Translations under genes and position numbers: made by a program
Origin: Jannaschia seosinensis
GTDB taxonomy: Bacteria > Pseudomonadota > Alphaproteobacteria > Rhodobacterales > Rhodobacteraceae
Length of the DNA: 64,000 bases
Direction of reading: 5' to 3'
Assembly: GCF_001408515.1 (NCBI RefSeq)
Contig: NZ_CYPR01000046.1
Span: 1-64,000 of the forward strand
The notes under the pieces: model-generated
Told to the model about the DNA's origin: nothing
The model's database searches: none
The model's input: only the letters and a program-made list of their open reading frames with translations
In this document: piece after piece, positions 8,321 to 58,904 of the stretch
Layout of the letters: each line of letters opens with the position of its first letter
Numbering within the stretch: the first letter of the stretch is position 1

Positions 8321-8989
8321 TCAGGCCGCGACGAGCGCCTGCGCCAGCCCCTTGAACAGCGCGGCCCCGTCGGTGCCCCCCTGCATCGCGTCGCAGGCGC
8401 GCTCCGGATGCGGCATCATGCCCAGAACGCGGCGGTTTTCCGACAGGATGCCCGCAATGCCATCCGCCGCCCCATTGGGCGTGACAACATAGCGGAACGC
8501 GACGCGCCCCTCCCCCTCAAGGCGGCGGAGCGTCTCGGGATCGGCGGTGTAGTTGCCGTCGTGATGTGCGATCGGGATGTCGATGACCTGCCCCTGCTTG
8601 TAGGCGGCGGTGAAGGCGCTCTCGGTCTCCTCGACCCTCAGCGCGACCGTCCGGCAGATATATTTCAACCCGGCATTGCGCAGCAGCGCGCCCGGCAGCA
8701 TTCCCGTCTCGCACAGGATCTGGAATCCGTTGCAGGGCCCGAAGACATAGCCGCCCCGCACCGCATGATCCGCCAGCGCCCCCGCGATCGGAGAGCGCGC
8801 GGCGATCGCCCCGCAGCGCAGGTAGTCGCCATAGGAAAATCCGCCCGGCACGCCGACGACATCGATTCCGTCGGGCAGCGTCGTCTCCTTGTGCCAGACC
8901 ATCGTGACGTCGAAGCCCGCGCCGCGGAAGGCGACGGCCAGATCGCGGTCGCAATTGGATCCGGGGAAGACGAGGATTGCGGCTTTCAT
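8321..8989 (-). CDS. purQ: Phosphoribosylformylglycinamidine synthase subunit PurQ
   Basis: Glutaminase subunit (222 residues) of the PurLQS complex, which converts FGAR to FGAM in purine synthesis. Class I amidotransferase motifs are clear: FPGSNCDRD at the N-terminus, [10 protein letters not shown], the nucleophile Cys in GPCNGFQIL, and the His-Glu pair in MMPHPER. The start is preceded by GAAGGAC. It is the last gene of a minus-strand purine cluster, but an alcohol dehydrogenase gene separates it from purS. A perfect 16-base palindrome lies 38 bases before its start codon. Confidence 0.97.
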
Positions 8990-9026
8990 CGAAAAAAGTC
9001 CTTCATGATTTCAGCCCCTTGCAGCA

Positions 9027-9042
9027 ATTACCCATGGGTAAT
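9027..9042. repeat. Perfect 16-bp palindrome, copy 1 (intergenic)
   Basis: ATTACCCATGGGTAAT is fully self-complementary. It lies between the alcohol dehydrogenase stop and the purQ start. The same 16 bases, plus one identical flanking base on each side, recur at 58021-58038 inside cysG. I found no third copy by eye. It is AT-richer at its ends than the surrounding DNA, suggesting a protein-binding site. Confidence 0.7.
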
Positions 9043-9044
9043 CG

Positions 9045-10079
9045 TCAACCCGCGAAATCCGTGACCACCGCCACGCCCGGCGGCGTCGGCCCGTCAAAGG
9101 CCGCAAGTTCCGCCGACACGTCCTGCAACCGCACCTCCCGCGCGACAAGCGGGGACATATCGACCGCCCCCGACGTGATCAAGGCAAGCAGCGACGGATA
9201 GCGCCAAGATGGCATCCCGCGCGTGCCGTAGAGCGCGAGATTGCCCTGATAGACGGCGCTCATGTCCACCTCCATCCGGGCGGTGTGCCCGACGGGCATC
9301 CCGATCTGCACATGCCGTCCCCGCGGGCGCAGGCACCCCAGCGAGGCGTTGACCGTGGCCGGGATGCCGAGCGCCTCGACCGAGACATGGGCGCCCCCGC
9401 CAGTGATCTCGCGGATCTGGTAGGCCGTATCCTCGCCCGCCAGAACCGCCGCATCGATCCCGAGACCGAGCGCGTGGTCCAGCTTCTCGCGCACCACGTC
9501 GACCACCACGACCCGCGCCCCCAATGCCCGCCCCAGAAGCGCGGCCGACAAGCCGACGCCGCCGGTTCCATGCACCGCAAGCCACTCGCCCCCCGCAAGC
9601 GCGGCCCGACCCGTCAGCGCGTGCCAAGCGGTCGTGACGCGACAGCCGAGCCCCGCGGCAAGGGCCGGGGAGACCTGTTCGGGCAGGTGGGCGAGGTTGT
9701 GATCCCGCGGGACGGCCACGTATTGAGCGAACGCGCCCGGCTCGGCGAAACCCGGCAGCCGCTGGTCGAGGCAGGTCGTCTGATGCCCCGAGCGGCATTC
9801 CGGACAGGCACCACAAGACAGAATGAACGGCGCGATCACCCGATCGCCCACGCGGAACGTCGCGTCCGGCCCCGCCTCGACCACCTCGCCGCAATATTCA
9901 TGGCCGCCGATCTGGCCCGGCTTCACCCGCGGATGCTCTCCCACCCAGCCGTGCCAGTCCGACCGGCAGACCCCGCAGGCCGCGACGCGCAGAACGACGC
10001 CATCGGGCGGACATTCGGGTTCGGGCACGTCCTCGATGACGAGCGGCTGGCGGTATTCACGAAGTATGGCGGCGCGCAT
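9045..10079 (-). CDS. Zinc-dependent alcohol dehydrogenase
   Basis: Medium-chain dehydrogenase of 344 residues. The catalytic zinc region has CGVCRSDWHG and GHEYCGEV. The structural-zinc cysteines are CGACPECRSGHQTTC, and the Rossmann fold carries GTGGVGLSAALLG. The start MRAAILREY follows GGGAGAGACC, which fits better than the longer upstream frame. The substrate cannot be told from sequence. Its placement between purS and purQ is unusual: it has no obvious purine role, and gaps of 110 and 55 bases separate it from its neighbours. It may be an insertion that keeps the operon direction. Confidence 0.9.
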   Translation of the reverse strand: MRAAILREYRQPLVIEDVPEPECPPDGVVLRVAACGVCRSDWHGWVGEHPRVKPGQIGGHEYCGEVVEAGPDATFRVGDRVIAPFILSCGACPECRSGHQTTCLDQRLPGFAEPGAFAQYVAVPRDHNLAHLPEQVSPALAAGLGCRVTTAWHALTGRAALAGGEWLAVHGTGGVGLSAALLGRALGARVVVVDVVREKLDHALGLGIDAAVLAGEDTAYQIREITGGGAHVSVEALGIPATVNASLGCLRPRGRHVQIGMPVGHTARMEVDMSAVYQGNLALYGTRGMPSWRYPSLLALITSGAVDMSPLVAREVRLQDVSAELAAFDGPTPPGVAVVTDFAG

Positions 10080-10189
10080 GGTGGTCTCTCCCTCGCAGCG
10101 CAGGAAGGCCGAGCGCGGCGCATTTGGCAAGACGCGGCAACGGGCGTCGGGCGGCCATCGGGCACGAGGGACGAAGCCGCCGGCGCGCC

Positions 10190-10417
10190 TCACATCTCGA
10201 TGCGGTAGCTTTCGATCACCGTGTTCGCCAGAAGCCGCTCGCACATCGCCTTGACCTCGGCATCCGTCGTGCCCTCGGCGACATCCATCTCGATGAGCTT
10301 GCCCTGCCGGACGCTCTCGACCCCCGCGAACCCCATCGTGCCGAGAGCATGGCGCACCGCCTCGCCCTGCGGGTCCAGCACGCCATCCTTCAACATCACC
10401 TCGACCCGGACCTTCAT
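10190..10417 (-). CDS. purS: Phosphoribosylformylglycinamidine synthase subunit PurS
   Basis: Small (75-residue) third subunit of the FGAM synthase complex, which lets PurQ deliver ammonia to PurL. The sequence matches the family from end to end: MKVRVEVMLKDGVLDPQGEAV at the start and ANTVIESYRIEM at the end. The start is the internal ATG at 10417, preceded by GGGAGAG, not the upstream ATG in the same frame. purQ follows after the dehydrogenase gene and purL is at 17870 on the other strand. Confidence 0.95.
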   Translation of the reverse strand: MKVRVEVMLKDGVLDPQGEAVRHALGTMGFAGVESVRQGKLIEMDVAEGTTDAEVKAMCERLLANTVIESYRIEM

Positions 10418-10477
10418 CACACTCTCCCGCCAGCATTCCGCCGTGTCGCTACCGCCCGGCCGCGTGTGGTGCAAGCG

Positions 10478-56920: not shown

Positions 56921-57382
56921 TCAGATCGGCAGGGCGAGGCTCGACTTGATCTCCTCCATCGACAGGAGCGCGGTGACGTTGAACACCCGCACCTCCGAAA
57001 TCAGCGCCTGATAGAACTCGTCATAGGCCCGCGCATTGGCCACCCGCACCTTCAGGATATAGTCGATCTCCCCCGCCAGCCGGTGCGCCTCCTGAACCTC
57101 CGGCCGGGCCTTCAGGGCGGCGAGGAAGCGGGCCTGCCACTCCGTCTCATGTTCGCTGGTGCGGATCAGGACGAAAAAACACGCCTCCAGCCCCAGCGCA
57201 TCCGGATCGACCACAACCTGCGGCGGCCCCATCACCCCCGCTTCGCGCATCTTGCGGACGCGATTCCACACGGGCGTCTTGGACGACCCCACCTTTCGCG
57301 CGATCTCGTCCAGCGATTGCCCCGCATCCGATTGCAGGGCGCGGAGGATTTTCCGGTCGAGATCGTCAAGACGGGCGGCCAT
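56921..57382 (-). CDS. Lrp/AsnC family transcriptional regulator
   Basis: A 153-residue regulator with an N-terminal helix-turn-helix (SLDEIARKVGSSKTPVWNRV) and a RAM ligand-binding domain (about 70-150, with VQEAHRLAGEIDYILKV). The ATG at 57382 has AGGAGAAAG upstream. It is divergent from the sulfite assimilation operon, and three dyads lie between the two (57403-57488). It probably controls that operon in response to a sulfur amino acid or precursor; this is inference from position. Confidence 0.93.
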   Translation of the reverse strand: MAARLDDLDRKILRALQSDAGQSLDEIARKVGSSKTPVWNRVRKMREAGVMGPPQVVVDPDALGLEACFFVLIRTSEHETEWQARFLAALKARPEVQEAHRLAGEIDYILKVRVANARAYDEFYQALISEVRVFNVTALLSMEEIKSSLALPI

Positions 57383-57402
57383 TCGGCTTTCTCCTGTGGC
57401 TT

Positions 57403-57488
57403 GGAACAATGTCCCGCCACGCAGGCTCACGGGACAGGAATGTTCCTGTTATCGCCGCCCCCCTGCCAAAGATCCAGAACGATGTTCT
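57403..57488. promoter_or_regulatory. Three dyads between the Lrp regulator and the sulfite operon
   Basis: GGAACAATGTCCC (57403-57415), ACAGGAATGTTCCTGT (57434-57449, perfect with a 2-base centre) and AGAACGATGTTCT (57476-57488, perfect 5-bp arms) share an ATGTTC-like core. They are spaced about three and four DNA turns apart, fitting cooperative Lrp-type binding. The third lies 34 bases before the cysG start. Confidence 0.65.
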
Positions 57489-57521
57489 ATATCAGGGGAC
57501 AGATTACCGGAGCGCGCCGCC

Positions 57522-58904
57522 ATGAATCACTTTCCCGTCTTCCTCACCCTCGATGGTCGCCGCGTTCTCGTGGCGGGCGGTGGCGACGCGGCGGTGGCCA
57601 AACTGCGGCTGCTGCTCAAGACGACTGCGCATATCACCGTCGTCGCCGAAACCTTCGCCCCCGAGATCGAGGATTGGGCCACCCAAGGCCGCCTGAAGCT
57701 TCTGCGCCGCGCGCAGGAGCCGGGCGACGCGCTGTGCTGCGTCATCGCCTACGGCGCGCATGAGGATGCCGCGTTGGATGCCCGCGCGCTCCGGCTCGCC
57801 ACCGCCGACGGGGCACTGGTCAACATCGTCGACAACCTCGCCGACAGCCAGTTCATCACCCCGGCCATCGTGGATCGGGACCCCGTCGTCGTCGCCATCG
57901 GCACCGAGGGTACGGCCCCCGTCCTCGCCCGCCGGATCAAGGCCGACCTCGAGGCGCGCCTGCCCAAGGATCTCGGGATGCTCGCGCGGGTTGCCAAGGG
58001 ATTCCGGGGACTTGCGATGAAATTACCCATGGGTAATCCGCGCCGCCGCTTCTGGGGGGACTACTACGAGAGCGTCGGCCCCCGCGCCGCGGCGACGGGC
58101 GAAGACGCCGCCCGCACCGCGCTCGGCAACCTGCTGGAGACCCATCTGGCCGCCGAGGCCCGCCCCGGCCATGTCGACCTCGTCGGCGCGGGCCCCGGCG
58201 ATCCGGAGCTTCTGACGCTCAAGGCCCGCCGCGCGCTCGACGCCGCCGATGTGGTGATCCACGACCGCCTCGTCGCGCCCGAAATCCTCGAACTCGCCCG
58301 CCGCGAGGCGATTCTGGTCGATGCCGGCAAGGAAGGCTTCGGCCCCTCCATGACGCAGGACGACATCAACGCGCTGATGGTGCGGCACGCGCAGGATGGC
58401 CACCACGTCGTCCGGCTCAAGGGCGGCGACCCGGCCGTGTTCGGACGCCTCGACGAAGAGATCGCCGCGCTCGACGCCGCCGAAATCGCCTGGACGATCG
58501 TGCCGGGCATCACCGCCGCCTCCGCCGCCGTCGCCTCCATCGGCCAGAGCCTGACGCAGCGCGGCCGCAATGCCGCCATCCGCCTGCTGACGGGGCACGA
58601 CATGAAGGGTTTCGCCGATCACGACTGGGCCGCGCTCGCCGCGCCCGGTCAGGTCGCCGCGATCTACATGGGCAAGCGCGCCGCACGCTGGATGCAGGGC
58701 CGACTGATGATGCACGGCGCGTCGCGCGCCACGCCCGTCACCGTGGTCGAGAACGCCTCCCGCCCCGATCAGCGCGTGCACGCCGCCACGCTCGCCACCC
58801 TGCCCGACATCGTGGCGGACGCGACCGGCCCGGCCGTCCTGCTCTATGGCCTCGCCCCCCGCGCCGCGATGGCGGCCATCCGCAACGAGGAGATCGCGCT
58901 GTGA
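57522..58904 (+). CDS. cysG: Siroheme synthase (CysG)
   Basis: A 460-residue fused enzyme. The N-terminal half is the NAD-dependent precorrin-2 dehydrogenase/ferrochelatase (VLVAGGGDAAVAKLRLLL). The C-terminal half, from about residue 215, is uroporphyrinogen-III methyltransferase (LVGAGPGDPELLTLKA, RLKGGDPAVFGR, PGITAASAA). It makes siroheme for the reductase encoded downstream. Near residue 170 the codons are AAA-TTA-CCC-ATG-GGT-AAT, reproducing the palindrome found before purQ. First gene of the operon; its stop overlaps the next start. Confidence 0.95.
   Translation: MNHFPVFLTLDGRRVLVAGGGDAAVAKLRLLLKTTAHITVVAETFAPEIEDWATQGRLKLLRRAQEPGDALCCVIAYGAHEDAALDARALRLATADGALVNIVDNLADSQFITPAIVDRDPVVVAIGTEGTAPVLARRIKADLEARLPKDLGMLARVAKGFRGLAMKLPMGNPRRRFWGDYYESVGPRAAATGEDAARTALGNLLETHLAAEARPGHVDLVGAGPGDPELLTLKARRALDAADVVIHDRLVAPEILELARREAILVDAGKEGFGPSMTQDDINALMVRHAQDGHHVVRLKGGDPAVFGRLDEEIAALDAAEIAWTIVPGITAASAAVASIGQSLTQRGRNAAIRLLTGHDMKGFADHDWAALAAPGQVAAIYMGKRAARWMQGRLMMHGASRATPVTVVENASRPDQRVHAATLATLPDIVADATGPAVLLYGLAPRAAMAAIRNEEIAL
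58022..58037. repeat. Perfect 16-bp palindrome, copy 2 (inside cysG)
   Basis: ATTACCCATGGGTAAT, identical to the copy at 9027-9042, with one extra identical base on both sides. It encodes Leu-Pro-Met-Gly-Asn in cysG using TTA, GGT and AAT, codons that are scarce in this GC-rich DNA. Confidence 0.7.

Follow-up and report, generated by a model that had tools for sequence, protein, structure and literature searches.

A palindrome array paired with IHF-consensus matches suggests parS-like sites for an orphan plasmid-type ParB in Jannaschia seosinensis

The question raised by this locus is why the same palindrome should stand both before purQ and inside cysG. Within the window, by which we mean the whole 64-kb stretch of DNA that was analysed, the exact 18-mer AATTACCCATGGGTAATC occupies positions 9026-9043 and 58021-58038, just as the original prediction had it, and its 16-bp palindromic core ATTACCCATGGGTAAT lies at 9027-9042 and 58022-58037, with no strand assigned to either copy. 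A search of the 64-kb window revealed no third place within three mismatches of the core, and two matches to it arose in 0 of 100 shuffles. The first core, a putative orphan-ParB site, is located between purQ (8321..8989, minus strand), whose start is approximately 38 bp away on the side of the flanking tail described below, and a Zn-dependent alcohol-dehydrogenase-like gene, whose stop codon is 2 bp from the core and whose true start lies inside the ORF at 9045..10436 (minus strand). The second core is part of the cysG reading frame, where it is translated within ..K L P M G N P..; the start of cysG is taken to be MNHFPVF (57522..58904, plus strand) within the ORF 57159-58904. All three genes were named by eye.

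The earlier reading of a two-copy repeat beyond chance was right, but understated. In the genome as a whole (3,830,145 b in 253 contigs), ATTACCCATGGGTAAT occurs in 35 exact copies, as compared to the approximately 0.0003 expected by arithmetic from base composition. There are also three copies with one mismatch, in each case in the central four bases, one copy with two mismatches, and none with exactly three, while a reversed control pattern yielded 0 exact copies and two within three mismatches across the same genome.

Furthermore, the 18-base repeat is part of a longer unit consisting of the core palindrome and an IHF site. When the copies are oriented by their flanks, most of them share a one-sided tail, which reads toward the core as an A/T-run, approximately 9-10 bases, WWTCAR-N4-TTG, 5 bases, and the core itself. 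This tail corresponds to the IHF consensus WATCARNNNNTTR plus its upstream A-tract; the consensus, the A-tract, and a bend of almost 160 degrees are described for IHF in the available portions of PMC9820253. At the first window copy, the match TTTCAGCCCCTTG (9009..9021, plus strand) agrees with 8/9 positions of the consensus and ends 5 nt from the core, with its A-tract at 8992..8997 (plus strand). At the cysG copy, a weak match TTCCGGGGACTTG (58002..58014, plus strand; 6/9) ends 7 nt from the core. Overall, matches of at least 7/9 are found 5 nt from the core in 30 of the 35 copies and 7 nt from it in two more (32/35), the remaining three, the cysG copy included, reaching only 6/9. By the same rule (5-7 nt, either side), such matches occur at 0.7% of 19,851 random positions of the same genome and at 4.2% of 594 AT-rich positions. 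The three one-mismatch cores have IHF matches 6-7 nt away that score 8, 9 and 9 of 9, and the two-mismatch core has a match of 4/9; given the strong matches beside the one-mismatch copies, the genome therefore likely contains approximately 38 real units. Using a tail profile from which the cysG copy (L011) and L003 were left out, the best coreless tail in 379 kb of the genome's own sequence scored 18.5, a value exceeded by 27 of the 35 real tails when left out of the profile. As regards possible ParB boxes on both sides of the IHF bend, GGG[GT] is present on the far side of the IHF match in 14 of the 35 copies, as a raw count. In a PF00216 search of the source assembly, an IhfA-like (C160) and an HU-like (C142) protein were identified and IhfB was not found; because the assembly is 98.7% complete, the latter may be an assembly gap. 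As judged by eye, the tail is a poor fit to a promoter (sigma-70, sigma-54, or UP element) and likewise to an intrinsic terminator.

The array of palindromes and IHF matches was not found in any relative examined. Exact ATTACCCATGGGTAAT is present in 0 of 59 relatives, comprising 19 from the genus, 16 from elsewhere in the family and 24 from elsewhere in the class. With the central bases left free, the pattern is still absent from all 19 congeners and is found in 1 of 393 other family genomes (one copy, G360), as compared to 37 copies in the source genome. The original prediction had looked to a genome-wide excess for support and had counted absence from close relatives at both loci against itself. 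The excess is evident, and the site, being private to the species, is absent from the congeners, but this absence does not refute the idea of a site. An array confined to one assembly of 253 contigs could also be viewed as an assembly or library artefact. We find this scarcely credible, since many of the sites lie in conserved gene order, some are in frame inside genes, and neither the flanking IHF matches nor the one-mismatch variants fit a linker.

When examining where the copies lie, it is evident that most are intergenic. By crude, GC3-based gene calls, approximately 32 of the 35 exact copies are outside genes and many directly follow a stop codon. The three exact copies that are read through in frame all encode L-P-M-G-N; they belong to cysG, to a carboxylase-like gene (L012), and to the final codons of the L088 ORF; the one-mismatch copy L184 lies within a long predicted ORF. 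The same calls, which count the copies inside genes and miscall L010 as start/start, classify the flanking gene boundaries as end/end for 12 copies, end/start for 21, and start/start for 2. At least nine cores start 3-8 bp past the stop codon of a long ORF according to a script, and by reading, those of L003, L009 and L010 are 2-6 bp past one. The neighbouring genes that were read are mutually unrelated and mostly housekeeping by eye, with no transposase-linked pattern among them, the exception being L005, which lies beside a transposase-like ORF.

To view the array at the level of the chromosome, 33 of the 35 copies were placed on the closed chromosome of the relative G014. L004 and L005 had no match, the placement of L006 and L087 relies on short, weak matches, and the cysG copy was placed separately from the 34-piece query. 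On this borrowed map, which assumes the origin to be at the chromosomal parB match of G014 and on which gene order is only partly kept, the spread is nearly even (Rayleigh P 0.79), with neither ter- nor ori-bias. From origin to terminus, successive sixths contain 5, 8, 5, 4, 5 and 6 of the 33 placed sites, so there is no terminus depletion. On the same map, the site spacing has a CV of 0.74 (one-sided P 0.046), and 24 sites are oriented with the replication fork versus 9 against it (P 0.014). With 35-38 copies evenly distributed round the chromosome, the proposal of a chromosome-wide segregation or nucleoid-type site resembling those of Noc or ParB is favoured.

A likely binder of the cores, judging from its sequence and position, is P0001, a ParB-family protein of 249 aa encoded outside the window at C18:60034-60783. 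A core-plus-IHF site (C18:60789) starts 5 bp past its stop codon, and its ATG is preceded by a good ribosome-binding sequence. P0001 scores 91 bits with TIGR00180 parB_part (cut-off 58.45) and 52.8 with Pfam SoPB_HTH (cut-off 27); its ParB_N score of 20.6 is below the Pfam cut-off of 26.3, and its score of 52 with the NCBIfam Noc model is far below the cut-off of 315. Its sequence matches in the PDB are to ParB, Spo0J and Noc chains. The alignment with its relatives indicates that P0001 is without their approximately 45-47 N-terminal residues. It begins MIHDYDPDTIRIPDTHDRD, which is acidic, and inspection by eye gives no sign of a membrane helix. In canonical ParB, the N-terminal end bears the ParA-binding motif, as described in the available portions of PMC12704722. 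No ParA is encoded beside P0001, the neighbours being a moeA-like gene and, by eye, irr-fabA-fabB. The closest ParA-like proteins are encoded beside the chromosomal ParB match and on a 5.4-kb contig that has its own ParB-like ORF. In all four relatives for which both flanks were covered (G012, G007, G014 and G002), the moeA-irr gap contains a dehydrogenase-like gene rather than parB, as judged by eye; G006 (L231) was left out of this comparison, its sequence being short of moeA. At E <= 1e-38, a match to P0001 is found in 1 of 393 other family genomes (G345, 46% identical), and a tblastn search of plasmid records returned 266 with a match, all of less than 60% identity and none spanning more than 80% of the length.

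Full-length homologs of P0001 do occur in eight congeners, where they are 39-46% identical and are preceded in all eight cases by a ParA-like gene, by eye, two of these being confirmed by Pfam. In seven of the eight, a palindrome of the ATTGCCAATTGGCAAT type (free centre, at most one mismatch) follows the homologous match by 12-43 nt; in the six cases read, it is found at the parB stop codon or immediately beyond it. A second copy is located approximately 3.8 kb away in six of these seven congeners and approximately 38 kb away in G013; in all three cases read, this copy is 3-29 bp past a Rep_3 gene. Presumably, these parA-parB cassettes sit on plasmids, since a Rep gene is present. G008 has the homolog and no ATTGCCA-type palindrome. 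Compared with the ATT-A-CC-C of the source genome, each congener half-site (ATT-G-CC-A) has two different bases, and the proteins also differ in their HTH region. Copies resembling ATTGCCA..TGGCAAT also exist without a close parB homolog in G014 (4) and G006 (1). Of 17 ATTGCCA-type loci, two (one of them at the parB of G003) have a 7/9 IHF match 5-7 nt away, and none has a better one. Because it is rare at these loci, IHF pairing is mainly a feature of the source genome and may serve something else. The original guess of a segregation or nucleoid-type site, similar in form to Noc or ParB sites, is thus supported: the best candidate binder is an orphan ParB, and most of its plasmid-type relatives are accompanied by a 16-bp palindrome in the equivalent position.

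A different kind of binder might be suggested by the occurrences of the 16-mer in other genomes and viruses. In 257 Gb of GTDB contigs, with the source genome excluded, 42 stretches contain it, at no more than two per genome, which is approximately the chance level (about 60 would be expected for random sequence by arithmetic); 24 viral stretches contain it as well. Nine outside loci had their genes read by eye, of which four encode TetR-like and thiolase-like proteins, one a thiolase-like protein, and two a phage-repressor-like protein, with nothing telling at the other two. The core in the source genome could accordingly be an operator for some other regulator, for instance one of the TetR family (as in Bradyrhizobium) or one resembling SlmA; IHF would then be a helper and the site adjacent to P0001 a coincidence. 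This seems improbable to us, as those other genomes have one or two copies each, and 63 of the 67 copies in other genomes and viruses are without an IHF match, four having one of 7/9 at 5-7 nt and none better. In addition, just 2 of the 35 source-genome sites are start/start by the crude calls, one of them miscalled, as opposed to the nine or more that closely follow a stop codon, and both the ParB-adjacent site and the palindromes of plasmid-type ParBs would have to be attributed to chance. No TetR-like gene was recognised by eye beside the 35 sites.

Several independent lines of sequence evidence thus link the array to an orphan plasmid-type ParB and to IHF. Our preferred reading, to which we assign a probability of roughly three in four, is that the palindrome serves as a parS-like site of P0001, a captured plasmid-type ParB without ParA, and that the working unit is the palindrome plus an IHF site whose distance from it is nearly constant. 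We infer from these data the binding of P0001 to the core, the binding and bending by IHF, and the cellular role of the system, which might proceed as follows. The lineage would have captured a plasmid-type ParB into its chromosome without ParA. Dimers of P0001 would bind the 16-bp core, and IHF would bend the flank beside the bound ParB dimer by approximately 160 degrees, as it does at the parS of phage P1, such that the core and its bent flank would form a strong ParB loading point. With approximately 38 of these, or approximately one per 100 kb, ParB could load and possibly spread at many places, and P0001 would act as a nucleoid organiser or a division- or segregation-linked factor rather than as a partition protein.

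With respect to this last step, roles as an organiser, an anchor or a regulator are all possible for P0001. We lean slightly toward the view that a plasmid centromere-binding protein has turned into an IHF-coupled, chromosome-wide nucleoid system, i.e. a lineage-specific analogue of Noc, whose approximately 38 parS-like sites evolved in place, including in the terminus half and in coding sequence. It is doubtful, albeit conceivable, that P0001 binds the same sites as a gene regulator or silencer, similar to VirB or KorB, and not as a chromosome organiser. According to the available portions of PMC10770331, orphan ParB relatives such as VirB do regulate genes, and the 21 end/start and 2 start/start sites of the crude calls could suit such a function, whereas the 12 sites between two gene ends and the unrelated, mostly housekeeping neighbours (by eye) do not.

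The origin of the sites can be approached by comparison with relatives. For cysG, eight usable loci (those in the right orientation) of 18 relative loci were compared, plus G014. The relatives are of equal length and already have the L-P-M-G codons, and the exact core is 5-6 substitutions from their sequence, including a TTA codon, which is expected to be rare at 68% GC. With no length change relative to these relatives, the cysG copy arose by substitution in place, not by insertion. The intergenic copies are less uniform. Orthologous gaps are shorter by 54-70 bp, the most populated range, in 9 of 51 comparisons with G012 and G014. Together with 35 identical cores and only four near copies, this could indicate that the 56-bp unit is a small mobile or copied repeat of the MITE, RIB or REP kind, dispersed by insertion with IHF taking part in its movement. 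We consider this reading very improbable, and the insertion of a fixed 56-bp element was dropped as a candidate, since the remaining 42 comparisons vary widely (-1200 to +541) and the cysG difference is 0 bp; in addition, the carboxylase-like copy differs by +12 to +15, and the neighbours read have no transposase-linked pattern apart from L005. Zero differences at L090 and L091 say little, their anchors being 6-10 nt from the core. Furthermore, the unconserved tail positions carry almost no information, and being nearly random, they argue that the units are not recent copies. RIB/RIP (REP plus IHF) repeats of enterobacteria are intergenic, often at gene ends, and likewise have a palindrome beside an IHF site. 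In the source genome, by contrast, the palindrome is not a REP hairpin: its 16 bases are invariant, and it has a ParB as candidate binder.

At the orthologous loci of G012 and G014, no shared species-specific palindrome was found. The tail profile gave 2 and 6 matches scoring above 12 in the G012 and G014 loci, respectively, as an overall tally for these loci. In the source genome, there are almost no weaker or half-formed core variants, which is unusual for binding sites born by mutation. On balance, the sequences favour selection in place over recent copying, with partial copying being possible.

The proposed system has obvious parallels among characterised ones. According to the available portions of PMC4331003 and PMC8429893, Noc is a paralogue of Spo0J/ParB that tethers DNA to the membrane by an N-terminal helix, and its binding sites (NBS) are palindromic 16-bp sites, approximately 70 round the chromosome and absent from the terminus. 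Like Noc of Bacillus subtilis, P0001 would be a ParB-family protein without ParA that is paired with many scattered 16-bp palindromes. Unlike Noc, P0001 resembles plasmid-type ParB, nearly all source-genome sites have an IHF match, and 6 of the 33 placed sites are in the terminus-most sixth of the G014 map. Because there is no terminus depletion and no helix evident by eye, we do not call P0001 a Noc. A second parallel is phage P1, in which parS is located just 3' of parB. As in P1, the source genome has a type Ia-like ParB, an IHF consensus at fixed spacing from a putative ParB box, and a site 3' of parB; IHF bends the P1 centromere DNA by approximately 180 degrees, according to the available portions of PMC5016525. 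However, in P1 parS the IHF site is flanked on both sides by A and B boxes, and P1 has a ParA, whereas the source genome has approximately 38 chromosomal sites with a one-sided palindrome and no ParA. The cassettes of the congeners share the type of ParB (39-46% identical) and, in 7/8, the palindrome just past parB, but differ in having two sites, a ParA, rare IHF matches, and approximately 45-47 additional N-terminal residues. Orphan ParBs have also been surveyed as proteins that have the ParB fold, are encoded apart from any parAB operon and often lack the ParA-binding motif, and the available portions of that survey describe no chromosome-wide set of IHF-paired sites (PMC12704722). The strings ATTACCCATGGGTAAT and ATTGCCAATTGGCAAT are absent from open-licence PMC papers, and among the matches listed there for parS with IHF, orphan ParB, or Noc sites, nothing similar was found.

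If the preferred reading is true, it would catch, in one lineage, a plasmid segregation protein in the course of becoming a chromosome-wide factor, a transition that has only been reconstructed for Noc. It would provide a candidate nucleoid factor in alphaproteobacteria as well as a system for asking by what route a genome can acquire approximately 38 strong sites within a single genus, and whether bending by IHF can stand in for the clustering of parS sites where ParB is loaded.

A number of individual loci also merit description. At L002 (1491-1526), the palindrome reaches beyond the core (ggatccgcca-core-tggcggatcc) and is longer than at most sites. The 5,436-b contig L237 (G000:C25) has a Rep-like ORF, a ParA-like ORF of 464-465 aa and, separately, a ParB-like ORF. 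Similar sequences stand in opposite orientation close to its two ends, and the contig is a plasmid or plasmid-derived piece. In G007, three exact ATTGCCA..TGGCAAT copies (C12:87523, C14:91389 and C20:418091; L213, L221) are off the contig of the parAB cassette and possibly reflect an early stage of site spread. G014 has an exact plasmid-type palindrome at C1:3092153 (L210) on a closed chromosome without a close relative of P0001, which is perhaps a relic. Outside the genus, the 16-mer adjoins TetR-like and acetyl-CoA acetyltransferase-like genes at L016, L026, L039 and L055, and a thiolase-like gene only at L035. The flanks of the TetR-like/acetyltransferase-like loci are similar across many Bradyrhizobium, where the 16-mer is likely a TetR operator. 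In Salinicola/Halomonas (L040 and L046) it is near a cI-like repressor gene, and further TTACCC/GGGTAA half-sites surround it in L042 and in the viral contig L066; at these four loci it is likely a phage operator.
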